From contig NZ_JAMOHM010000005.1 of NCBI RefSeq assembly GCF_024448335.1, forward strand, positions 1 to 64,000: a DNA stretch of 64,000 nt. The letters run 5' to 3'. The notes beneath the pieces are model-generated. The model was not told where the DNA came from. It did not search any database and was given only the letters and a program-made list of their open reading frames with translations. Numbering within the stretch: the stretch's first letter is position 1; every line of letters starts with the position of its first letter. Positions 27,714 to 39,345 of the stretch are shown piece by piece. This DNA is from Stutzerimonas frequens (GTDB taxonomy: Bacteria; Pseudomonadota; Gammaproteobacteria; Pseudomonadales; Pseudomonadaceae). The translations under genes and the position numbers were made by a program.

Positions 27714-28475
27714 ATGGAATCGCTCATCCAGCTTTTTTCCGAACCCACCACCTGGGTGGCCCTGGCCACGCTGATCACCATGGAGGTGGTACTCGGCATC
27801 GATAACCTGATCTTCATTTCGATCCTGACCAACAAGCTGCCGGAGCAGCATCGCGAGCGGGCCAGACGCATCGGCATCGGCCTGGCCCTGATCATGCGCC
27901 TGGGCCTGCTGGGGACCGTGGCCTGGATCGTCCAGTTGACCGAGCCGGTCTTCGAGGCGTTCGGCCATGCCTTCTCCTGGAAGGACATGATCCTGATCGC
28001 CGGCGGCCTGTTCCTGCTGTGGAAGGCGACCAAGGAAATCCACCACAGCATGGACCCGACGCCGGGCGGCGACATGTTCGAGGGCAAGTCGGTCGGCAAT
28101 GCGGTCACCATGGGCTTCGGCTCGGCAATCGCGCAGATCCTGCTGCTGGACCTGGTGTTTTCCATCGACAGCATCATCACCGCCGTCGGCATGACCGACC
28201 ATGTGGCCATCATGGTGGTCGCGGTAATCGTTGCGGTGACCGTGATGCTGGTGGCGGCCAACCCGCTCGCCAAGTTCATCAACGACAACCCGACAGTGGT
28301 CATGCTGGCCCTGGGGTTCCTGCTGATGATCGGCATGACCCTGATCGCCGAAGGCTTCGGCGCCCACGTGCCGAAAGGCTACGTCTATGCCGCCATGGCG
28401 TTCTCGGCGGGCATCGAGGTGCTGAACATGCTGGCGCGACGGGCCAAGCGCAAGCAGCTCGAAGGGGCACGCTGA
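27714..28475 (+). CDS. TerC-family integral membrane protein
   Basis: The 253-residue protein has about seven hydrophobic segments and the two family aspartate motifs inside membrane helices, [12 protein letters not shown] near the N-terminus and [12 protein letters not shown] in the middle. TerC/YoaE/YgdQ proteins are linked to metal (Mn, tellurite) handling at the membrane, but the substrate of this one is not shown by sequence. It stands alone; no metal riboswitch was recognised upstream. Confidence 0.88.
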
Positions 28476-28491
28476 CGGCTGTCTAGGTGCT

Positions 28492-28518
28492 GGTGAGCCG
28501 GGCACCGCTCGGCTCGCC
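28492..28518 (+). other. stem-loop after the TerC-family gene
   Basis: GGTGAGCCG pairs with CGGCTCGCC (one G-T wobble) around a 9-nt loop, 17 bases after the stop. No T-run. A weak terminator is possible. Confidence 0.4.
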
Positions 28519-28583
28519 TACCCGGCACAACCGTCTGGACGATTCTGCGGCGCCCGAGCGAGCGAGCACCTGCACGCCGGCCC

Positions 28584-28718
28584 CAGGACGAAGCCAGCTG
28601 CGTGGTTTTCGGCATGCCCAAGGAGGCGCTGCAGATCGGTGCCGCCCAGAGCACCGAGGCCCTGGAAAACCTGCCCAGGTTGATCACCGACTATGCCCGT
28701 GCCACTTGCCGGAGTTGA
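28584..28718 (+). pseudogene. 3' remnant of a cheB methylesterase gene
   Basis: In one frame this stretch reads QDEASCVVFGMPKEA followed by about 29 more residues to a stop. This is the C-terminal signature of chemotaxis methylesterase CheB (E. coli ends similarly with EASCVVFGMPREA). No start codon, receiver domain or upstream part of CheB is present, so it is a relic of a rearrangement or deletion. The rest of the 385-base interval 28476-28860 shows only the stem-loop at 28492 and no other gene. Confidence 0.72.
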
Positions 28719-28860
28719 GCACGGCGCCGCTGCAGACGAGCGGCGCTGATGCGATTCAGCGCACCGCCGATACGGCGTGCCTATATCCCCTGCTTTCGAA
28801 GGGATTCCCGTGACCGTACGGTTTCGCTATGGTGGCTAACAGGTATCACGGAGTGATCGC

Positions 28861-29796
28861 ATGGTTCGGGGCTCAATCCTCTTGCTGTTGTTTGTCGCCT
28901 TGCTCGGCTGCCAGCCCGAATCGGATTCGATCCGTATCGGCAGCAACCGCTGGCTTGGCTATGCACCGATCTATCTGGCGGACGATCTGGGCTGGACTGC
29001 CCCCAGCGGCATCCGTCTGGTGGAATACCCGAACACCACAGGTGTGCTGCGCGGCTTTCGCAACGGCATGCTGGACGCCGCCATGCTCACCCTCGACGAA
29101 ACGCTGCTGCTGCAGGACAGCGCGGCGGAGCTCGACCTGGAGATCATTCTGGTCACCAACGTCTCAGCTGGCGCCGATGCGCTGTTCGCCCGCGCGCCGC
29201 TGACCAACCTCAAGGACTTGGCCGGCCAGCGCATTGGCGTGGAGAACACTGCGCTGGGCGCCTACTTCCTTTCCCGCGTGCTGGATCAGGCCGGGCTGCG
29301 GATCGACGATCTGCAGGTGGTCAGCCTGCCAGTGCATGAGCAGACCGCCGCCTTCGCCGCCGGCGATGTCGACGCTGTCATCACCTTTGCTTCGGAGGGC
29401 CCGGCGCTGGAAAGCAAGGGCGCCCGGCGCATCTTCGATAGCCGCCAGCTGCCGGGCGAGATCGTCGACGTACTGGTGGTCGACCGGCAACGCGTCACCC
29501 ACGAGCAGCGCCGGCGCCTCCGGGCCCTCTGGTTCGATGCGCTGCGCACCTGGCAGGACAATCGCGGTGAAACCGATCCACGCCTGCATGCGCGCCTCGG
29601 CCTGACGCCGATGGCACTGCAGGTCACCCTTGACGGCTTGTTGATGGGTGATCGCGCCGTCAACCGTGAATGGTTCGACGAGGGCCAGTTGCAGCAGAGC
29701 ATCGGCCAGCTCAGCCAGTATCTGCGCGAACGCCGGCTGCTCAACGGTTCGAACCCGGTCAATCTGATCGCTCGCTGCGAGGGCCCAACATGCTGA
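28861..29796 (+). CDS. lipoprotein substrate-binding protein (NMT1/SsuA type)
   Basis: The 311-residue protein has a lipoprotein signal ending in LLGC (Cys17) and a periplasmic-binding fold of the nitrate/sulfonate/pyrimidine-precursor type, with IRIGSNRWLGYAPIYLADDLGW at the start and MLDAAMLTLDE as the usual ligand-loop region. There is no permease or ATPase next to it. Instead its last seven bases overlap the start of a GGDEF-EAL protein, so it more likely acts as a sensor that presents a ligand to that membrane enzyme than as a transporter component. The ligand is unknown. Confidence 0.85.
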   Translation: MVRGSILLLLFVALLGCQPESDSIRIGSNRWLGYAPIYLADDLGWTAPSGIRLVEYPNTTGVLRGFRNGMLDAAMLTLDETLLLQDSAAELDLEIILVTNVSAGADALFARAPLTNLKDLAGQRIGVENTALGAYFLSRVLDQAGLRIDDLQVVSLPVHEQTAAFAAGDVDAVITFASEGPALESKGARRIFDSRQLPGEIVDVLVVDRQRVTHEQRRRLRALWFDALRTWQDNRGETDPRLHARLGLTPMALQVTLDGLLMGDRAVNREWFDEGQLQQSIGQLSQYLRERRLLNGSNPVNLIARCEGPTC

Positions 29797-32180
29797 CAAG
29801 TTTGTCGCTGCGTCGATCAATGCCCCTGCTGCTGGGCATCTTCGGTCTGCTGTTCACGGTCATGCTGACCGCCTGGCACCTGCCGACCCGTATCGAGGAA
29901 AACCTCGCCGGCTGGCGCAACCACACCTCGCAGCATCTTGCCCTGCTGCAGAGCAGCCTGAGCGATCATCGCCGCCTCGGCCGCAACGCCGAGCTGGAGA
30001 CCGAGCTGGCCGATCTGGCCAGCCTGGAAGGCGTGCGCTGGGCGATGGTGATCGACCGTGGGCTACAGGTGATCGCCACGACCCAGCTGGGCCTGTCCCC
30101 CGAGCGCCTGACGCTGATCGATGCCGGTGAGCTCGCCAAGCAGGTGAACGGCGGCCGCGCGGGCTGGTTCGGCAAAGGCTCCAGGCAGCTGGCGATCTAC
30201 CCGCTGGACCGCGTCGCCCAGGACGGCACGCCGCTGCGCGAAGCGCTGCTGGTGGCGTACGACTTCGCGCCGATGCTGGCGCAGACCAAGCGCGAGGCCT
30301 GGTTCTACCTCGTGCAAACGCTGGCCCTGCTGTTGTTGCTTGGCGTGATCCTCAACCGCCTCTACGGTCGCCTGCTGACACGCCGCCTGGCCCGCATCGA
30401 CCAGGCCGCACGCCAGTTCGCCATCGATCAGCAACCGCAGAACCTGTCGGTCGGCGGCCGCGACGAGATCGCCCGGCTGGCCAGAACCCTCAATCGGATG
30501 ATGAACCAGCTGCACGAGCGCCAACTGGCGCTCAGCGAAAGCGAGCAGCTGTTCCGCGACCTGGTGGACACCGCGCCGATCGGCATGCTGGTGGTCGACC
30601 GCGAGCTGCGCGTGCTGCAGGCCAACCCTGCGGCGGCAGCGCTGTTCGGCTGTACCCCGGCGGAGCTGCTGGGCAACCTGCCGAGTGATCGCCTGCTGGA
30701 AAGCGACGCCACCACCCGGCTGCTGAGCACCCCGGCGAACACGCCGCTGGAGCTGACCGGTCGCCGTCATGATCGGGAGGTGCCGCTGGAGATCAGCTGC
30801 ACGCCATTCCAGCGCTACGGCGTTCGCCATTTCCTCGTGCTGCTGCGCGACATCAGCGACCGCCTGCGCGCCGAACAGCGCCTGCGTTTTCTCGCCCACT
30901 TCGATCCGCTGACGCAGCTGGCCAATCGCAACTACCTGGTGCAGCGCCTCGAACAGTTGCTCGCGGCGCGCCTGCCGCTGACACTGCTCTACCTCGACCT
31001 GGACCACTTCAAGCGCATCAACGACAGCCTCGGCCATGAGATCGGCGACAAGCTGCTGGTGCAGATCGGCGACCGCCTGGGCCGGCTGATGCCGGAGCAT
31101 GCGCTGCTGTCACGCAGCGGCGGCGACGAATTCATGCTGCTGCTCGACGGCAGCGACCACGCCCGCGCCGAGCAGCTGGCCCAGTGCATCATCGAAGGCT
31201 TCCAGCCGCCGGTGCGCATCGGCCAGTACGAGTGCTACGTCAGCCCGAGCATCGGCGTTGCCATCAGCGACGGCCGGCACAGTGCCAGCGACCTGCTCAG
31301 GCAGGTGGACCTGGCGCTGTATTCGGCCAAGGACGCGGGGCGCAACTACACGGTCTTCTACAACGAATCCCTAAGCGAAGCCGCCGCGCAACGCCATGAA
31401 CTGGAGCAGGCGCTACGCCGTGCACTGGATCACGACGAGTTCGTGCTCCACTACCAGCCGCAGGTCAACGCCCAGGGTGAACCGGAAGTCATGGAGGCCC
31501 TGCTGCGCTGGAACTCGCCGGAGCGAGGCCTGGTGCCGCCCGGGGTGTTCATCCCGGTGCTGGAAGACAGCGGCATGATCATCGAGGCGACCCGCTGGGT
31601 GTTTCGCGAAGCCTGCCGCCAGGCGTGTCGCTGGCACGCCATGGGGCATGCGCTGCGCATCGCGGTCAACCTCTCGCCACTGGACTTCCGCCAGGCGGAT
31701 CTGGCCGGCAGCCTGCTGGCGATTCTCGAGGAAGAAGGCGCATCGGCAAGCATGCTGGAACTGGAGGTCACCGAGAGCGCGCTGCTCGAAGCCGACGAGC
31801 ATGTCCAGCAGACCCTCGGCCGTCTGAAGGCCGCCGGGCTGCCGCTGCTGCTCGACGACTTCGGCACCGGCTATGCCTCGCTGACCTATCTGCAACGCTT
31901 CCGCTTCGATGGCATCAAGATCGATCGGGAATTCGTCAGCGGACTACCGGATAGCGAGCAGTCCGTCGCGCTGGTGCGAGGCATCCTCACCATGGCCAGT
32001 CACCTCGGCCTGCATGTGGTCGCCGAAGGCGTGGAGAACGAGCGCCAGGCGGCTTTCCTGCGCCTCAACGGCTGCCCCAGCCTGCAGGGTTTCCACTACG
32101 CATGGCCGCTACCCGCCGCCCAATGCCGCCTGCAGCATGGCAACCGGCCGATCAACCTGCAGCTGCCGCTGGACGGCTGA
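29790..32180 (+). CDS. membrane-bound GGDEF-EAL cyclic-di-GMP enzyme with PAS domain
   Basis: The 796-residue protein has a membrane helix at 11-29, a periplasmic sensor region to about 170, a second helix at 172-189, a HAMP domain (to about 240), a PAS domain (about 250-360), then GGDEF and EAL domains. The cyclase site SGGDEF (443-448) is intact, but the inhibitory RxxD site that normally lies just upstream is absent (PEHA instead). The phosphodiesterase site looks complete: EALLRW (569-574), NLSP, ELEVTES, LDDFGTG, KIDREFV and AEGVEN. It overlaps the preceding lipoprotein by seven bases. Whether synthesis or breakdown dominates cannot be read from sequence. Confidence 0.93.
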   Translation: MLTSLSLRRSMPLLLGIFGLLFTVMLTAWHLPTRIEENLAGWRNHTSQHLALLQSSLSDHRRLGRNAELETELADLASLEGVRWAMVIDRGLQVIATTQLGLSPERLTLIDAGELAKQVNGGRAGWFGKGSRQLAIYPLDRVAQDGTPLREALLVAYDFAPMLAQTKREAWFYLVQTLALLLLLGVILNRLYGRLLTRRLARIDQAARQFAIDQQPQNLSVGGRDEIARLARTLNRMMNQLHERQLALSESEQLFRDLVDTAPIGMLVVDRELRVLQANPAAAALFGCTPAELLGNLPSDRLLESDATTRLLSTPANTPLELTGRRHDREVPLEISCTPFQRYGVRHFLVLLRDISDRLRAEQRLRFLAHFDPLTQLANRNYLVQRLEQLLAARLPLTLLYLDLDHFKRINDSLGHEIGDKLLVQIGDRLGRLMPEHALLSRSGGDEFMLLLDGSDHARAEQLAQCIIEGFQPPVRIGQYECYVSPSIGVAISDGRHSASDLLRQVDLALYSAKDAGRNYTVFYNESLSEAAAQRHELEQALRRALDHDEFVLHYQPQVNAQGEPEVMEALLRWNSPERGLVPPGVFIPVLEDSGMIIEATRWVFREACRQACRWHAMGHALRIAVNLSPLDFRQADLAGSLLAILEEEGASASMLELEVTESALLEADEHVQQTLGRLKAAGLPLLLDDFGTGYASLTYLQRFRFDGIKIDREFVSGLPDSEQSVALVRGILTMASHLGLHVVAEGVENERQAAFLRLNGCPSLQGFHYAWPLPAAQCRLQHGNRPINLQLPLDG

Positions 32181-32211
32181 TCGGCGGACGGCGTGCCAGC
32201 ATTAAGCCTGC

Positions 32212-32231
32212 AATTGCGAAGCGTTCGCATC
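32212..32231 (+). promoter_or_regulatory. Fur-box-like palindrome before the ECF sigma factor
   Basis: ATTGCGA-AGCG-TTCGCAT, an inverted repeat 39 bases before the sigma factor start. It resembles the GCGAAT/ATTCGC variants of Fur sites in pseudomonads and has the same overall pattern as the site at 32830. Confidence 0.5.
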
Positions 32232-32269
32232 TGAGTTAGGTTCGTGCCCCCTCCCGGTGGCACGCACCC

Positions 32270-32767
32270 ATGCGCGACAACAACAAGATTCCCGATGCCT
32301 GCCTGCAATGCTATGTCCATCACCGCCAACAGCTGGTGGCCCATCTCACGCGCCTCGGCGGCTGTCGCGCGCTGGCCGAGGACCTGGCTCAGGATGCCTG
32401 GCTGAAACTGGCGCAGGTCATGCCCGAGCAGAGCCTCGCCAACCCCAAGGCCTATCTCTTTCGCATCGCCACCAATCTCTTGCGCGATGCCCTGCGCCGC
32501 CGCGCGCTTGTCGGTGCCGGCGACGAGGCACCGCTGGAACTGATCGAGGCCGTGCAGGCCGACCCCTGCGGGCTGGTGGAACACCAGTGTGCGCTGCGAT
32601 GCGTCCTACGCCAGCTCGACGACTTGCCGCCACGCTGTCGCCAGGTGTTCGAACTGGCGCGGCTGGAAGGGCTCAGCCAGGCGGAGATCGCCGAGCGTCT
32701 GGGCATTTCGGTGAACACCGTGATCGCTCAGCTGGCCAAGGCGCGCCAGCGCCTGGAGCGCCCGTAA
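32270..32767 (+). CDS. ECF sigma factor, FecI-like
   Basis: The 165-residue protein has sigma region 2 (DLAQDAWLKL, NPKAYLFRIATNLLRD) and region 4 with helix-turn-helix LSQAEIAERLGISVNTVIAQL, matching iron-starvation sigma factors of the FecI/PvdS group. No FecR-type anti-sigma gene or TonB receptor follows; instead the next operon makes a siderophore. That suggests direct Fur control of the sigma factor, which then drives iron-uptake genes, possibly elsewhere on the chromosome. The target promoters are not identified. Confidence 0.88.
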   Translation: MRDNNKIPDACLQCYVHHRQQLVAHLTRLGGCRALAEDLAQDAWLKLAQVMPEQSLANPKAYLFRIATNLLRDALRRRALVGAGDEAPLELIEAVQADPCGLVEHQCALRCVLRQLDDLPPRCRQVFELARLEGLSQAEIAERLGISVNTVIAQLAKARQRLERP

Positions 32768-32828
32768 TTTTTTCTTCGACCCCGTAATGGTTTTTCCGCG
32801 CTGATTCGTCTTGCCTGTGCCCTTGCGC

Positions 32829-32848
32829 AATTGAGAGTAATTCTCGAT
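32829..32848 (+). promoter_or_regulatory. Fur box before the siderophore operon
   Basis: ATTGAGA-GTAAT-TCTCGAT at 32830-32847 is close to the Fur consensus pattern (AATGAGAATNATTCTCATT-like) and lies about 115 bases upstream of the decarboxylase start, with no other gene between. Confidence 0.65.
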
Positions 32849-32962
32849 TAAACGGCATCCTCGCAGATGCTTTCGTGCGGCCACGCCGCCAGACAAGAAA
32901 CCACCGACGCCGCGAAAACGGCCCGCTCCGGGTCGCGGCCGCGCTCGGCCCGAGGAATGTGC

Positions 32963-34489
32963 ATGCCCCCGTCCAGTACCGTAGTGCCCTTCGCCCCCGG
33001 CCCCGCCAGCAGCGGGTTGTTCACCCGCAGCAATCATGATGACTACCGCCGGCTCCTGCAGCAGGGTCTGAACCTGGTGCAGCAGTGCGTGCAGCGTCAG
33101 CAGCAGCCGTTCAGCGGCATCCTTCCGCAAGAGCTGGCCGCCGACTTCGAACGCGTCGATCTCGAGCGCCCGCTGGGCGACGCCGGCGCCGCGCTGCGCG
33201 AGCTGGATCAGCTCTATCTGCGCGACGCGGTGTATTTCCACCATCCGCGCTACGTCGCCCATCTCAACTGCCCGGTGGTGCTGCCGGCGCTGCTCGCCGA
33301 AGTGCTGGTGTCATCGCTCAATTCCTCGCTGGACACCTGGGACCAGAGCGCCGGCGGCACGCTGATCGAACAACGCCTGATCGACTGGACCTGCGCGCGC
33401 ATCGGCCTCGGCAGTCAGGCCGACGGCGTCTTCACCAGCGGCGGCACCCAGTCCAATCTGATGGGGCTGCTGCTGGCCCGTGAGCACGTCTGCAACCGTT
33501 TGCCCGGCCACGGCGGCAACCTCCAGCACGGGCTACCGCCGGACGCGGGCCGACTGCGCATCTTCGCCTCCCGCGCCAGCCACTTCAGCGTGCAGAAATC
33601 CGCCGCGCTGCTGGGGTTGGGCTACGACGCCGTGCGCAGCATCGAAACCGATAGTGCCCAATGCATGAGCGTGCCGGCGCTGGCCCAGGCGTTGGCGGAC
33701 TGTCAGCGCCTGGGCGAGCTGCCCATGGCCGTGGTCGCCACCGCCGGCACCACCGACTTCGGCAGCATCGACCCGCTGCCGGAAATCGCCGCGCTGTGCC
33801 AGCACTATGGCGTCTGGTTGCACGTCGATGCGGCCTATGGCGGCGGCCTGCTGGTCGCGCCGCGCTATCGCGGCTGGCTGACCGGCATCGAACACGCCGA
33901 CTCGGTCACCGTGGACTACCATAAGTCGTTCTTCCAGCCGGTCAGCTGCAGCGGCTTCTTCGTTCGCCAGCGTCAGCACCTGAGCTACATCACCCACCAC
34001 GCCGACTACCTCAACCCGCGCAGCCAGACCCGCGAGGGCACGCCGAACCTGGTCAACAAGAGCATCCAGACCACCCGCCGCTTCGACGCGCTGAAGCTCT
34101 GGCTGACCCTGCGCATCCTCGGTGCCGAGCATCTCGGCGCGATGTTCGAGGAAGTCATCGACCGCGCCGCCGACACCCATCGCCTGCTCGCCGACGACCC
34201 GGCCTTCGAGGTCTTCGCCCCGCGCCTGAGCACGCTGGTGTTCCGCTTCGTCGCCGCAGGCGTGGCGGACGAGCGCCTGGACGAGATCAACCGCGAGATC
34301 CGCAAAGCGATCTTCCGCTCCGGCGCGGCGGTCATTGCCGCCACCGTGGTCAAGGGTCGGCAGTACCTCAAGTTCACCCTGCTCAACCCGGAAACCACGC
34401 TGGACGACCTGCGCGCCATCGTCGAGCTGATTCGTGACCACGGCGCCCGCCTGCTCGACGACCGTCAACCAGTAGGAGATCGCTCATGA
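32963..34489 (+). CDS. desA: PLP-dependent lysine/diamine-forming decarboxylase (DesA-like)
   Basis: The 508-residue group II decarboxylase has the PLP pocket HVDAAYGG (287-294) and the Schiff-base lysine K321 in VDYHKSFF. In the context of an N-hydroxylase, an acyltransferase and an IucA/IucC synthetase it most likely decarboxylates lysine to cadaverine, the first step of desferrioxamine synthesis; ornithine to putrescine (putrebactin type) or 2,4-diaminobutyrate are alternatives. Of three in-frame starts, the ATG at 32963 is chosen because GAGGA ends six bases before it. The stop overlaps the next start (ATGA). Confidence 0.85.
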   Translation: MPPSSTVVPFAPGPASSGLFTRSNHDDYRRLLQQGLNLVQQCVQRQQQPFSGILPQELAADFERVDLERPLGDAGAALRELDQLYLRDAVYFHHPRYVAHLNCPVVLPALLAEVLVSSLNSSLDTWDQSAGGTLIEQRLIDWTCARIGLGSQADGVFTSGGTQSNLMGLLLAREHVCNRLPGHGGNLQHGLPPDAGRLRIFASRASHFSVQKSAALLGLGYDAVRSIETDSAQCMSVPALAQALADCQRLGELPMAVVATAGTTDFGSIDPLPEIAALCQHYGVWLHVDAAYGGGLLVAPRYRGWLTGIEHADSVTVDYHKSFFQPVSCSGFFVRQRQHLSYITHHADYLNPRSQTREGTPNLVNKSIQTTRRFDALKLWLTLRILGAEHLGAMFEEVIDRAADTHRLLADDPAFEVFAPRLSTLVFRFVAAGVADERLDEINREIRKAIFRSGAAVIAATVVKGRQYLKFTLLNPETTLDDLRAIVELIRDHGARLLDDRQPVGDRS

Positions 34490-35805
34490 ACAAGATCTAC
34501 GACTTCATAGGCATCGGCATCGGCCCGTTCAACCTTGGCCTGGCCTGCCTGGCAGAGCCCATCGACGGACTCGACTGCCTGTTCCTCGACCGCGCCGAGG
34601 GCTTCAACTGGCATCCCGGCATGATGCTCGACAGCGCCACCCTTCAGACGCCGTTCATGGCCGATCTGGTGACCCTGGCCGACCCCACCAGCCGTTTCAG
34701 CTTTCTCAACTACGCCAAGCAGATCGGGCGGCTGTACGCCTTCTACATCAAGGAAGACTTCTTCCTGATGCGCCGCGAATACAACCAGTACTGCCAGTGG
34801 GTGGTGGAGCAGCTCGACAGCCTGCGCTTCGGGCATTTCGTCCAGCACGTCGACTACCTCGACGAGCGTCGCTGCTACCGCGTGCGCGGGGTACATGCGC
34901 GCAGCGGCGAGGGTTTCGAGTTCCTCACCCGCCGCCTGGTACTCGGCACCGGCACCACGCCCTATCTGCCGAGCTGCTGCGAAGGCGTGGCCGACCACGT
35001 CAGCCACAGCGGCAACTACCTGCAGGACAAGCCACGCCTGCAGGGCAAGCGCTCGATCACCGTGGTCGGCAGCGGCCAGAGCGCTGCGGAGATCTACTAC
35101 GACCTGCTGCAGGAAATCGACCGCCACGACTATCAGCTGAACTGGATCACCCGCGCGCCGCGCTTCTTCCCGCTGGAATACACCAAGCTGACGCTGGAAA
35201 TGACCAGCCCTGAGTACATCGACTACTTCCACAGCCTGCCGCGCAGCACCCGGGAAAAGCTCATCGACAGCCAGAAGGGCCTGTACAAGGGCATCAACGG
35301 TACGCTGATCAATGCCATCTACGACGAGCTGTACAACCAGAGCCTCAAGGGCGAGGTGCCGACCCAGCTGCTGACCAACGCCGAACTGCGCCGCTGCCAG
35401 CGCCTGGCCGACGGCACGCTGGAGCTGGAGTTCTTCCAGCACGAACTGCAGCAGAGCTACCGGCACCGCTGCGAGGCGCTGGTGATGGCCAGCGGGTATC
35501 AGTACCGCCTGCCACGCTTCATCCAGCCGATCGCCGAACGCATCGTCTGGCAGGCGCCGGAGCGCTTCGCCGTGGCGCGCAACTACAGCATCGACCGCAA
35601 CGGCGGCGAGGTCTTCGTGCAGAACGCCGGGCTTGCCGATCACGGTCTGGTGACGCCGGATCTCGGCATGGGCTGCTACCGCAACGCCTGCATCCTGCGC
35701 GAGATCTGCGGGCGCGAGCACTACGCGGTGGAGACGAAGATCGCCTTCCAGCAGTTCAGCCTGCCGCAGCCGCTCACGCCCCAGGGCGCGGTGGCGGCGC
35801 GATGA
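34486..35805 (+). CDS. desB: siderophore amine N-monooxygenase (DesB-like)
   Basis: This flavin enzyme N-hydroxylates the diamine made by the previous gene. The 439-residue protein has the FAD motif GIGIGPFNLG at 9-18, the NADPH motif VVGSGQSAAE in the middle, and the C-terminal NAGLADHGLVTPDLGMGCYRN characteristic of lysine/ornithine N-monooxygenases (IucD/PvdA/AlcA/DesB). It overlaps both neighbours by four bases, so translation of the operon is tightly coupled. Confidence 0.93.
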   Translation: MNKIYDFIGIGIGPFNLGLACLAEPIDGLDCLFLDRAEGFNWHPGMMLDSATLQTPFMADLVTLADPTSRFSFLNYAKQIGRLYAFYIKEDFFLMRREYNQYCQWVVEQLDSLRFGHFVQHVDYLDERRCYRVRGVHARSGEGFEFLTRRLVLGTGTTPYLPSCCEGVADHVSHSGNYLQDKPRLQGKRSITVVGSGQSAAEIYYDLLQEIDRHDYQLNWITRAPRFFPLEYTKLTLEMTSPEYIDYFHSLPRSTREKLIDSQKGLYKGINGTLINAIYDELYNQSLKGEVPTQLLTNAELRRCQRLADGTLELEFFQHELQQSYRHRCEALVMASGYQYRLPRFIQPIAERIVWQAPERFAVARNYSIDRNGGEVFVQNAGLADHGLVTPDLGMGCYRNACILREICGREHYAVETKIAFQQFSLPQPLTPQGAVAAR

Positions 35806-36956
35806 CGCTGCGACGCGCACTGATCGGCATGACGCTGCTGGCCGTGCTCGGCGACAGCCTGCTGATGCCGTTCTACCCGCAATACTTCGCCGAGCGTTTC
35901 GGCGAGCTGCGCAGCGAGCAGGTCGGGCTGTACCTGGCCGCGGTGTGCCTGGTGGCGATGCTCGCACTGCCCGTGTGGGTGCGCCTTGCACGCCATGCTC
36001 ACCCGCTGCGGCTGCTGATCCTCGGTCAGCTGGTAGCCGGCGTGCTGGCACTGGCCTGCGCGGCCATCGACCGGCAGTGGCTGTTCTGGCCGGTGTCGCT
36101 GGCGATGATCGCCGTCAAGGCCAGCTATCTGCTGATGTATCCCTACGTCATGGGCTTGGTAGGCACCGACCAGCAGGTACGCACCATCGGCCTGCTCTCG
36201 GTGGTGGTGCACCTGGGCGCAATTGCCGGCGCGACGCTGGGCGGCGGCGTGCTGCACTACCTCAGTCCGGCGCGGATGTTCGTGCTGATGGGGCTGATGG
36301 ACTTCGTGCAGATGGCCGTCAGCCTGCTGCTGTTGCGCCATGCGCCGCAGCCGGCACGGGCCGATGCGAGCACGCCGCCACGGGCTGCGCAGGAACACCT
36401 TGCGATCATCCGCCTGTGCCTGCTGATGCTGGCTTTCTACTTCTGCGTCTACCTGGCGCGGCCGTTCTTCACGCTGTACTGGGAACAGCTCGGCGGACCA
36501 CAGGCCAGCTGGATCACCGGCCTGGTCTATGCCATTCCCGGCATGCTGGCACTGCTCGCCCTCGCCCTGCACTACCACGCCGGGCAGCACCTGACCGCCT
36601 GGCTGCTGCTCGGTGCCGCCGGGCTGGCGTTGCAGGGCGTCGAGCAGATGCCGCTGGTGCTGGCCGGGCGCGTGCTGTTCGGCTGGGCGCTGTACCAGCT
36701 CACCGTGGCGCTGGATGCGCGACTGTTCGCCCTCAGCCGGCCGGAGCACTACGGCCGCGACTACAGCCTGATCAACATCTTCCAGAACCTCGGCGTACTC
36801 ACCGCCTCCTGGCTGGCCGGCGTGGTGGTACGTGATGCCGGCCTCGCCGCGCCGTTCCTGCTCTCGGCGCTGGGCCTCGTTCTCACCGCATGCACCCTGC
36901 GCTGGCTGCTGGTTTCGGCACCAGCCGGGGCGCCTCTCTGTGGAGCCAAACCATGA
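35802..36956 (+). CDS. MFS transporter, probable siderophore exporter
   Basis: The 384-residue protein has about 11-12 hydrophobic segments with an MFS pattern (MTLLAVLGDSLLMPFYPQYF at the start, a charged loop near residue 185). It is inserted between the hydroxylase and acyltransferase genes with 4-base overlaps at both ends, so it is surely part of the pathway; secretion of the finished siderophore is the likeliest role, with AlcS-like exporters as a precedent. Import cannot be excluded. Confidence 0.85.
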   Translation: MTLRRALIGMTLLAVLGDSLLMPFYPQYFAERFGELRSEQVGLYLAAVCLVAMLALPVWVRLARHAHPLRLLILGQLVAGVLALACAAIDRQWLFWPVSLAMIAVKASYLLMYPYVMGLVGTDQQVRTIGLLSVVVHLGAIAGATLGGGVLHYLSPARMFVLMGLMDFVQMAVSLLLLRHAPQPARADASTPPRAAQEHLAIIRLCLLMLAFYFCVYLARPFFTLYWEQLGGPQASWITGLVYAIPGMLALLALALHYHAGQHLTAWLLLGAAGLALQGVEQMPLVLAGRVLFGWALYQLTVALDARLFALSRPEHYGRDYSLINIFQNLGVLTASWLAGVVVRDAGLAAPFLLSALGLVLTACTLRWLLVSAPAGAPLCGAKP

Positions 36957-37540
36957 ACACCGCTCTTTCCCGCGCGGACGGTCCGCGCTTCGTCCGCTAC
37001 TGCGCCCTCGGCGCGATGCACTTCGAAACCCTGCAACCCGAGCACCTGCCGCTGCTGCAGGACTGGCTGCGCCGCGACTACGCGCGCTTCTGGGGCATGG
37101 GCCACATGAGTCTGACGCAGCTGGCCGACTACGTTGACGAGATCCAGCGCAGCAGTCACCGCGACATCGCCCTCGGCCTGTGGAACGGCGAGCCGGCCTT
37201 CCTGTTCGAGGGCTACCACCCTGCCCACGACCGGCTCGCCGACCACTATCAGGTGCGCCCCGGCGACCGCGGCATGCACCTGCTGCTCGCCCCCTGCGAG
37301 CGCCCGGTGCACGGCTTCAGCCTGGAGGTGATGCGCAGCATCCTCGCCTATCAGTTCGCCGACCCTTTCGCCCGCCGCATCGTCGTCGAGCCCGACGCGC
37401 GCAACGCCAAGGTACATGCGCTCAACCGCCGGGTCGGCTTCGTCTACCAGTGCCTGCTGCATCTGCCGGAGAAGGACGCCTGCCTGGCGTTCTGCACCCG
37501 TGCGCAGTTCCTCGCCACCCTTCAGGAGAACCCGCAATGA
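36953..37540 (+). CDS. desC: siderophore acyltransferase, GNAT fold (DesC/IucB-like)
   Basis: The 195-residue protein resembles the acyl-CoA N-acyltransferases that acylate the hydroxylated diamine: HFETLQPEHLPLLQDWLRRDYARFWGM, then PGDRGMHLLLAP and a C-terminal RIVVEPDARNAKVHALNRRVGF acyl-CoA site. In desferrioxamine synthesis it adds succinyl or acetyl groups to hydroxycadaverine. The ATG at 36953 has GGAG eight bases upstream and overlaps the exporter stop (ATGA). The upstream in-frame ATG at 36890 is rejected. Confidence 0.87.
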   Translation: MNTALSRADGPRFVRYCALGAMHFETLQPEHLPLLQDWLRRDYARFWGMGHMSLTQLADYVDEIQRSSHRDIALGLWNGEPAFLFEGYHPAHDRLADHYQVRPGDRGMHLLLAPCERPVHGFSLEVMRSILAYQFADPFARRIVVEPDARNAKVHALNRRVGFVYQCLLHLPEKDACLAFCTRAQFLATLQENPQ

Positions 37541-39345
37541 ATCAGCTCGTACGCCTGCCGACCGCTACCAGCGACCTGGCCACCGACCATCTGCAAGCCG
37601 AACTCTGGGCCCGCGCCAATCGCCTGCTGCTGAAAAAGGCGCTGGCCGAGTTCAGCCACGAGAAGCTGCTCAGCCCCGAGCCGCTGGGCGACAGCCACTA
37701 CCGCGTCGCCGTGCCGGACAGCTCGACCGAGTACCGCTTCAAGGCGCGGCGGCTGGCGCTGGATCACTGGTCGATCGCGACCGACTCCATCGAAAAGCTC
37801 AGCAACGGGGAACCACAGCCGCTGGATGCCCTTGCATTCATCATCGAGTTCAGCGACGTCCTCGGCCTTTCCGAAACCAACCTGCCGCTCTACCTGGACG
37901 AGATCAGCAGCACCCTGTTCGGCAGCGCCTACAAGCTCGCCAACAGCCCGCTGAGCGCGGCCCAGCTGGCCCTGTCGGACTTCCAGCAGATCGAGACCGG
38001 CATGCGCGAAGGTCATCCGGGATTCGTCGCCAACAACGGGCGGATGGGGTTCGACGCCCAGGATTACCGCGCCTACGCGCCGGAAGCCGCCAGCCCGGTG
38101 CGTCTGGTCTGGCTCGCCGTGCATCGCAGCCGCGCCAGCTACAGCGCCATCGACGGGCTCGACCAGGCGACCCTGCTGCGCGAGGAACTGGGTGGCCAGC
38201 TCGGCGTGTTCCACAACCAGCTGCAGGCGCTGCAGCTCGACCCGGACGACTATCTGCTGATGCCGGCGCATCCCTGGCAGTGGCACAACATCCTGGCCAT
38301 CGGTTTCGCCGCGGAGATCGCCAACCGGCAGATCGTCTATCTCGGCCTGAGCAACGACCGTTACCTGGCGCAGCAGTCGATCCGCACCTTCTTCAACCAG
38401 AGCGAGCCGCAGCGGCGCTACGTGAAGACCGCCCTGTCGATCCTCAACATGGGCTTCATGCGCGGGCTGTCGCCCTATTACATGCAGGCGACCCCGGCGA
38501 TCAACGCCTACCTCGCCGGCCGCGTGGCGCGCGACCCGCTGCTGCGCGGCTGCGGCTTCCAGCTGCTGCGCGAGGTGGCGGCGATCGGCTATCGCAACCC
38601 TTACTACGAGCAGGCGCTGCCGGCCAGCAGCCCCTACCGCAAGATGCTCTCGGCGCTCTGGCGCGAGAGCCCGCTGGGCCACATCGAACCTGGCCAGCGG
38701 CTGATGACTATGGCCGCGCTGCTGCACAGCGACGGCGACGAGCGCGCCCTGCTGCCGACGCTGATCAGCGCCTCGGGACTCACCGCCGACCGCTGGCTGC
38801 GGCAGTACCTCAATGCCTACCTGAAGCCGCTGCTGCACTGCTTCTATGCCCATGACCTGGTCTTCATGCCCCACGGCGAAAACCTGATCCTGGTGCTGGA
38901 AGACCATGTGCCGGTCCGCGTGCTGATGAAGGACATCGGTGAGGAAGCGGTGATCCTCGATGCCGAGGCGAAGATTCCCGAAGCGGTCGGCCGTCTCGCC
39001 GTCTCGGTGCCGGACGAGCTCAAGGTGCTGTCGATCTTCACCGACGTGTTCGACGGCTTCTTCCGCTACTTGGCGCAGATTCTCGACGAACAGGGCGGCC
39101 TGCCGGAGCAGCGCTTCTGGCAGCAGGTCGCCGACTGCATCGCCGACTACCAGGCCAGCCAGCCGCAGCTGCGCGACAAGTTCGCCCGTTACGACCTGTT
39201 CGCCGAGGAATTCGCCCGCTCCTGCCTGAACCGCCTGCAGCTGGGCAACAACCGACAGATGCTCGACCTCGCCGATCCGGCCGGAGCGCTGAAATTCGCG
39301 GGCACCCTGAAGAACCCCGTGGCGCGCTATGCACCGGAGCGCTGA
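37537..39345 (+). CDS. desD: NRPS-independent siderophore synthetase (IucA/IucC family, DesD-like)
   Basis: This enzyme joins the acylated hydroxamate units by ATP-dependent amide bond formation. The 602-residue protein has the IucA/IucC core (GHPGFVANNGRMGF, LMPAHPWQWHN, KTALSILNMGFMRGLSPYYM) and the C-terminal FhuF-like iron transporter segment (PHGENLILVLEDH). It matches type C synthetases that iterate and can close macrocycles, as for ferrioxamine E or putrebactin. Start ATGA overlap with desC, with GGAG upstream. Only one synthetase gene is present, which fits a DesABCD pathway better than aerobactin or rhizobactin. Confidence 0.93.
   Translation: MNQLVRLPTATSDLATDHLQAELWARANRLLLKKALAEFSHEKLLSPEPLGDSHYRVAVPDSSTEYRFKARRLALDHWSIATDSIEKLSNGEPQPLDALAFIIEFSDVLGLSETNLPLYLDEISSTLFGSAYKLANSPLSAAQLALSDFQQIETGMREGHPGFVANNGRMGFDAQDYRAYAPEAASPVRLVWLAVHRSRASYSAIDGLDQATLLREELGGQLGVFHNQLQALQLDPDDYLLMPAHPWQWHNILAIGFAAEIANRQIVYLGLSNDRYLAQQSIRTFFNQSEPQRRYVKTALSILNMGFMRGLSPYYMQATPAINAYLAGRVARDPLLRGCGFQLLREVAAIGYRNPYYEQALPASSPYRKMLSALWRESPLGHIEPGQRLMTMAALLHSDGDERALLPTLISASGLTADRWLRQYLNAYLKPLLHCFYAHDLVFMPHGENLILVLEDHVPVRVLMKDIGEEAVILDAEAKIPEAVGRLAVSVPDELKVLSIFTDVFDGFFRYLAQILDEQGGLPEQRFWQQVADCIADYQASQPQLRDKFARYDLFAEEFARSCLNRLQLGNNRQMLDLADPAGALKFAGTLKNPVARYAPER

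Follow-up and report, generated by a model that had tools for sequence, protein, structure and literature searches.

A solute-binding lipoprotein and a GGDEF-EAL protein as a candidate two-protein receptor in Stutzerimonas frequens, with relatives across the Pseudomonadota

Two overlapping genes for a lipoprotein and a membrane enzyme

We analyzed positions 1 to 64,000 of contig NZ_JAMOHM010000005.1 from Stutzerimonas frequens (assembly GCF_024448335.1); this 64-kb stretch is the window. It contains two overlapping genes. The first (28861..29796, + strand) encodes P0001, an NMT1/SsuA-type solute-binding lipoprotein of 311 amino acids with a signal peptide and a lipobox that ends at Cys17. The second (29790..32180, + strand) encodes P0002, a membrane receptor-enzyme of 796 amino acids, arranged as transmembrane segment (TM) 1, periplasmic domain, TM2, HAMP, PAS, GGDEF, and EAL. 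We propose that these genes are co-expressed and that they encode a two-protein receptor, in which the solute-binding protein (SBP) acts on an enzyme of cyclic di-GMP (c-di-GMP) metabolism. From the sequence comparisons below, we consider this likely.

The end of the lipoprotein gene and the start of the receptor gene share seven bases, ATGCTGA (29790..29796, + strand). (The mechanical open reading frame began at 29670; we set the start at the ATG at 29790, inside ATGCTGA.) The receptor's ATG overlaps the lipoprotein's stop in all 34 rows from Pseudomonadaceae (several of which are one genome fetched twice): 31 rows have ATGCTGA, L054 and L056 have ATGCTAA, and L055 has ATGTTAA. (L and G numbers are our handles for loci and genomes.) In three remoter rows (L030–L032), the genes do not overlap.

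P0001 matches the Pfam families NMT1 (50.8 bits) and NMT1_2 (50.6 bits) above their cut-offs; for the NMT1/THI5-like SBP superfamily (PF09084), the curated cut-off is 20.5 bits. Its lipobox reads LLGC, and Cys17 is invariant across 20 relatives (alignment A1). In the AlphaFold2 model of P0001 (mean predicted local distance difference test, pLDDT, 84.2; predicted template-modeling score, pTM, 0.81), the nearest solved folds are TauA (Z = 27.8) and SsuA (Z = 27.1), which also score best in a sequence search of the Protein Data Bank (PDB). TauA and SsuA are soluble SBPs of ATP-binding cassette (ABC) importers, whereas P0001 has a lipobox and falls below the cut-off for the SsuA family of aliphatic sulfonate SBPs (TIGR01728, SsuA_fam; 87.1 vs. 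163.5 bits). It also falls below the cut-offs for taurine SBPs (TIGR01729; 35.6 vs. 304.25 bits) and urea SBPs (TIGR03427; 84.1 vs. 333.9 bits).

No permease and ATPase genes adjoin the lipoprotein gene in the window, so the locus does not class as an ABC importer. A profile for SsuC-type permeases had no matches in the 64 kb, and ATPase profiles matched at 57.7–60.2 kb only, beside a urea-type transporter at 54–60 kb (Peripla_BP_5 / BPD_transp_2). We considered this transporter as a partner, but its SBP belongs to another family and it lies 22 kb away, and we rejected it.

The TM segments of P0002 (residues 13–31 and 170–188) bound a periplasmic domain of about 140 residues (residues 29–172; 29874..30305, + strand). 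HAMP (residues 192–243) and PAS (about 254–358) domains follow, and then the GGDEF domain (residues 369–519; 30894..31346, + strand) and the EAL domain (residues 540–772; 31407..32105, + strand). All of the motifs that we take to be catalytic in EAL domains are present in the translation (EALLR, NLS, EVTES, LDDFG, KIDREF, AEGVE, and QGF). The GGDEF motif is intact, and the four residues at what we take to be the position of the inhibitory RxxD site are PEHA. RxxD is absent from all seven Stutzerimonas- or Denitrificimonas-type proteins with a readable motif and is present in the remoter relatives L115, L117, L124, and L180 (it is absent from L224). The lineage of P0002 has therefore probably lost it. 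Because the EAL site and the GGDEF motif are intact and RxxD is absent, the enzyme is probably bifunctional. Thus, what an earlier note had read from the sequence alone holds up: an NMT1/SsuA-type lipoprotein without a permease, a seven-base overlap with the gene for a membrane GGDEF-EAL protein that has a periplasmic domain, a GGDEF domain that lacks RxxD, and a complete EAL site.

Among NCBIfam equivalogs, P0002 matches phosphodiesterases best, all below their own cut-offs; the match to DibA (NF045675) is 438.3 bits against a cut-off of 980. LapD, which signals from the inside out, is arranged in broadly the same way (TM, periplasmic domain, HAMP, GGDEF-EAL), so we also considered that P0002 might be a non-catalytic, outward-signaling receptor for c-di-GMP, with the lipoprotein as its periplasmic effector instead of a sensor. 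This seems very unlikely: both active-site motifs of P0002 are intact, its LapD equivalog score (140.6 bits, also below the cut-off) is far lower than that for DibA, its partner is an SBP rather than a protease, and kinases, which normally signal inwards, are among the partners used in the family.

The pair is present or absent as a unit

Across 37 genomes of the genus, 18 (including our own) have both genes at adjoining coordinates and 19 have neither; one of these 19, G004, is only 71% complete. In this survey, a lipoprotein ortholog was a match with E of 1e-90 or better, and the receptor was searched for by its N-terminal part. Outside the genus, the receptor search gave a weak match in one genome (E = 3.6e-6). 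Of 15 loci that we found, 12 are from Stutzerimonas or Pseudomonas (78–98% lipoprotein identity) and three are from Denitrificimonas or uncultured Pseudomonadaceae (45–49%); both genes are together in these three as well. By its gene linkage, an SBP gene next to a gene for a membrane GGDEF-EAL protein with a periplasmic domain, the pair classes as a putative SBP-coupled c-di-GMP receptor that would work like NspS-MbaA. The earlier note had asked whether the pair is conserved without ABC genes; in the genus, the two genes are kept together.

Most related SBPs adjoin a signaling gene

The SBP profile (A1, from 20 SBPs) was searched against two genome sets, 369 from the class and 398 from the phylum. 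Because the search scored 5–6 candidates per genome, the counts that follow are among the matches listed, and some relatives may be missed. At 1e-25, 80 genomes of the class and 132 of the phylum have a match. We took the surroundings of every listed match of at least about 175 bits (own genome and G002 excepted) and of some hand-picked lower-scoring ones. Neighbors were classified at 155 loci (140 fetched and the 15 earlier ones), using home-made profiles that were grown from single seeds within the same loci.

A signaling gene lies directly downstream, on the same strand, for 107 of the 117 SBPs with at least 175 bits: 58 histidine kinases, 36 GGDEF-EAL proteins, and 13 with GGDEF only (some of which are cut by a contig end or frame break). 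The other ten are one SBP followed by ABC genes (L164), two at contig ends, and seven unclassified cases. Among the latter, the downstream proteins of L134 and L209 have the type-A receptor domain described below and those of L216 and L217 have type B; for L129 and L143 only a fragment follows, and L142 has no receptor. At 100–175 bits (38 SBPs), 25 adjoin ABC genes, four adjoin a kinase, nine adjoin neither, and none adjoin a GGDEF gene. The four beside histidine kinases (L235, L241, L242, and L251) are possibly a separate recruitment of NMT1 SBPs to signaling. In addition, 28 genomes of family f226, which is outside the window's class, match A1, and the f226 tree rows with an output label (part of L175–L218) are all kinases.

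The signaling SBPs also differ from their ABC-linked cousins in their predicted anchoring. After nine near-identical Stutzerimonas rows were removed (they were retained in the 117, but not in the tree, mirror-tree, lipobox, or conservation counts), 85 of 102 signaling SBPs have a lipobox, as compared to 3 of 26 ABC-linked SBPs. (Our test was a regular expression that misses some lipoboxes, and a few other SBPs look as if they are held by an N-terminal membrane helix.) We counted Asp at +2 in 4 of the 85 lipobox-bearing signaling SBPs; by the Escherichia coli +2 rule, most of the 85 would go to the outer membrane, but we judged this too weak to build on.

In a quick tree of 146 SBPs, the split between ABC-linked and signaling SBPs takes two changes, and the split between kinase and c-di-GMP outputs takes 17. 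Since A1 was built mostly from receptor-linked SBPs, the tree is a fairer test than the neighbor counts.

SBPs can serve a transporter and a receptor at once, as is described for BctC (PMC9602780). P0001 might likewise serve an unlinked ABC permease while informing the enzyme, or the receptor might sense transport traffic. This genome has 11 NMT1 loci, and at five (L001, L003, L004, L007, and L009) there is an ABC or permease gene within flanks of about 1.5 kb that could in principle be shared. We consider both readings unlikely, as close relatives are linked to receptors and only 1 of 117 is linked to a permease, the ABC-linked cousins mostly lack a lipobox, and the SBP and receptor genes are present together or absent together. 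The earlier note would have been undercut if relatives of the lipoprotein were mostly found with an ABC permease or if the two genes were not conserved together; neither is what we see among the close relatives. Its proposal of a two-part c-di-GMP sensor with a recruited transport protein is supported by the sequence comparisons, but it was too narrow, as a histidine kinase is the commoner output (58 of 107).

The SBP appears to be inherited with the periplasmic domain of its receptor

The periplasmic domain of P0002 has no Pfam matches at E up to 0.1. To find relatives, we ran iterative profile searches seeded with residues 9–195 of P0002. The resulting domain of about 150 residues, which we call type A, is recognized in 88 of the 117 SBP partners: 46 kinases, 31 GGDEF-EAL proteins, 8 GGDEF proteins, and 3 unclassified proteins. 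Searching all 117 frames again gave 88, and a profile without the transmembrane parts gave 87. (The partner at L196 was taken in the wrong frame, and the real kinase partner, in G623, matches type A, so 88 is a slight undercount.) Another 17 partners have a PhnD-like domain of about 280 residues, type B, in which Pfam's Phosphonate-bd was found for 6 of 7 tested. The remaining 12 have neither type; some of these are cut frames or are not receptors. Pairs with a type-B domain would place two binding proteins in one sensor, an NMT1 SBP and a PhnD-like receptor domain (L138, L148, L149, L155, L206, and L216).

Both types of receptor domain occur with both outputs: without the near-identical rows, type A is joined to 46 kinases and 30 c-di-GMP enzymes, and type B to 6 and 8. 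On a tree of the SBPs only (90 rows with both labels), the type of receptor domain changes once (in 200 shuffles, mean 13.3 and minimum 10), while the type of output changes 15 times (mean 29.3 and minimum 22). Nothing else that we found argues as strongly for a module made of the SBP and the periplasmic part of its receptor: because the receptor type changes once and the output 15 times, the SBP and its docking domain look as if they are inherited as a unit with exchangeable outputs.

If the receptor senses by itself through its Cache-like domain, then the lipoprotein could be a bystander that is kept by operon inheritance. In its favor, some receptors that share the domain have no such SBP nearby, as described below. 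But the linkage persists across the Pseudomonadota while outputs are exchanged, and one would not expect a bystander to track the type of receptor domain, with one change in 90 rows. We give this explanation little credence.

A search for the type-A domain in the 398 phylum genomes found matches at 1e-5 in 57 genomes. Of the 44 matches with E < 1e-15, 39 adjoin the SBP by their coordinates; for two more (L257 and L270), the contig ends upstream and linkage cannot be read. The last three, L255, L256, and L258, are GGDEF-EAL proteins and do not adjoin such an SBP. Among 19 weaker matches, those in G164 and G674 adjoin the SBP, and the 11 that we inspected (L259–L269) have no A1-type SBP nearby. 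At L264, a PhnD-like SBP gene lies upstream of a weak type-A match whose domain assignment is unsure. At L265 and L266, a YfiR/HmsC-like (DUF4154) gene lies directly 5' of a kinase gene with a weak and unsure type-A match, and it is preceded by a gene that appears, by its sequence, to encode a TonB-dependent receptor.

Weak matches to CHASE8, Cache_WalK, or sCache_3_2 (best E = 0.0016) were found in 2–5 of 73 type-A members. In a Foldseek search with the receptor model, the extracellular Cache domain of WalK was found, with TlpQ, LuxQ, and CitA lower. Since roadblock-type folds are in the same list, we claim only a general Cache/PAS-like shape for the predicted structure of the periplasmic domain.

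In the kinase set (46 pairs), distances between SBPs track distances between periplasmic domains more closely than those between kinase domains (among distant pairs, r = 0.635 vs. 0.431, with a bootstrap range for the difference of 0.065 to 0.337). This is not so in the GGDEF set (30 pairs), where the SBP tracks the periplasmic domain no better than it tracks the GGDEF domain (r = 0.451 vs. 0.500). We dropped the mirror-tree approach as proof of contact because its outcome is mixed.

The GGDEF set is one of several results that weigh against a two-protein receptor or an inherited module. L255, L256, and L258, and by its weaker match L263, have a type-A domain without this type of SBP nearby, so the domain can act alone or with an unlinked partner. 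Conversely, the high-scoring SBPs include L142, without a nearby receptor, and L164, with ABC genes, and with four lower-scoring SBPs beside kinases, the classes are not cleanly divided by score. Both profiles also favor linked cases by construction: most of the SBPs behind A1 were known to lie beside receptors, and the type-A profile was made from receptors with a linked SBP. In the quick SBP tree, 46 of 143 inner branches have under 80% support, and the well-supported branches force only six output changes. Finally, confidence in the model of the receptor is moderate (mean pLDDT 75.8, pTM 0.57).

Signature positions and the ligand

Across the signaling SBPs, W31, G33, T77-L-D-E80, D106, E128, and D203 (P0001 numbering) are nearly fixed with both docking types. 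Three of these align with ligand contacts of TauA: in a profile alignment, with residue numbers that we derived ourselves, D106 and D203 occupy the places of TauA's Glu106 and Asp205, and T77 that of Gly79. D106 and D203 are also nearly invariant in the ABC-linked cousins; the stronger markers of the signaling clade are E128 and the T-L-D-E motif. In TauA, Glu106 and Asp205 bind the amine of taurine (PMC6906117). With acids at both places in P0001, we would guess, weakly, that its ligand is a small molecule with an amine or amide group.

Surroundings of the pair

Directly after the pair, at 32270–39345, are a gene for an extracytoplasmic function (ECF) sigma factor, which begins 89 bases from the end of the pair, and a siderophore cluster (pyridoxal phosphate-dependent decarboxylase, ornithine/lysine monooxygenase, major facilitator superfamily transporter, and IucA/IucC). 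The ECF and decarboxylase genes follow the pair in all 11 Stutzerimonas-type loci that are long enough to show them; the three Denitrificimonas-type loci have no matches to these genes within about 2.6 kb. Given this missing synteny, and with siderophore genes sought at these loci only, we did not adopt a siderophore as the ligand.

Upstream of the lipoprotein gene is a remnant of a cheB methylesterase gene, its last 39 codons (28599–28718). At L044, a whole cheB (Pfam CheB_methylest), a methyl-accepting chemotaxis protein gene, and other che-like frames precede the pair. Upstream of the pair in the window, a cluster of chemosensory genes has therefore probably been lost. A scan of 28400–32400 for promoters and terminators found none, which is uninformative.

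Discussion

We propose that P0001 is a periplasmic SBP that no longer serves a transporter. Ligand binding would close the lipoprotein, which would then dock on (or leave) the Cache-like domain of P0002. By analogy to NspS-MbaA, the ligand-loaded form most likely docks and switches the output of the GGDEF-EAL domains. The signal would pass through TM2, HAMP, and PAS and alter the balance between synthesis and degradation of c-di-GMP, which might in turn affect biofilm formation or motility. If the enzyme is bifunctional, then it probably rests as a phosphodiesterase and the ligand would switch its direction, as in NspS-MbaA.

NspS is a polyamine-binding, PotD-like SBP. P0001 has no PotD-like Pfam match at E ≤ 0.001 (the matches are NMT1, NMT1_2, and a sub-cut-off Phosphonate-bd; NspS itself was not compared directly). 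Like the pair in the window, NspS-MbaA combines a periplasmic SBP with a membrane GGDEF-EAL enzyme, but our SBP is of the NMT1/SsuA type, has a lipobox, and belongs to a clade that pairs with kinases as well. In Vibrio parahaemolyticus, ScrB and ScrC are reportedly another SBP and GGDEF-EAL protein (Trimble and McCarter, 2011). More broadly, SBPs signal through membrane receptors in AioX-AioS (arsenite sensing), LuxP-LuxQ, and TorT-TorS. To our knowledge, none of AioX, LuxP, and TorT belongs to the NMT1 family. AioX is a PhnD-like SBP that acts through a kinase. The Foldseek matches of our receptor model include the periplasmic domain of LuxQ, the receptor that works with the SBP LuxP.

The state of the SBP NspS sets whether MbaA acts as a cyclase or a phosphodiesterase in V. 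cholerae, and the system is also described from Sinorhizobium meliloti (PMC8967002, PMC9993111). The aioX gene clusters with its kinase gene, and LuxP and TorT are described as structurally distinct from the PhnD-like AioX (PMC5908839). That SBPs can act on signaling receptors is established; such coupling is believed to be common, and around ten cases with kinases have been characterized (PMC9602780). A review of c-di-GMP sensing, in its treatment of periplasmic-binding-protein clan domains in such enzymes, gives SBP_bac_3 as the only one studied (PMC8846402). Among the titles listed by our open-access literature search, none concerned the pairing of a GGDEF-EAL protein with an SBP of the NMT1 type, and we found nothing about the SBP clade described here, about its receptor domain, or about output exchange. 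The principle of such sensing is already known from NspS-MbaA, AioX-AioS, and LuxP-LuxQ.

More tentatively, we raise the possibility, which we hold to be somewhat less likely than not, of a cassette that is spread across the Pseudomonadota: a clade of lipid-tethered NMT1 SBPs that formerly served transport, with a docking domain that is Cache-like or, in one sub-clade, PhnD-like, which may have been plugged repeatedly into kinases and c-di-GMP enzymes. Because the signature positions are nearly fixed across both docking types, the family might even share one class of ligand.

Few SBP-driven c-di-GMP receptors have been studied so far. With a constant sensing half and an exchanged output half, this family, which is easily recognized by sequence, would allow one to test directly if specificity lies in the input module alone. 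It would also give a route to a ligand that is perhaps used by many species, and orphan proteins that are annotated as "ABC transporter substrate-binding proteins" could be re-annotated as sensors.

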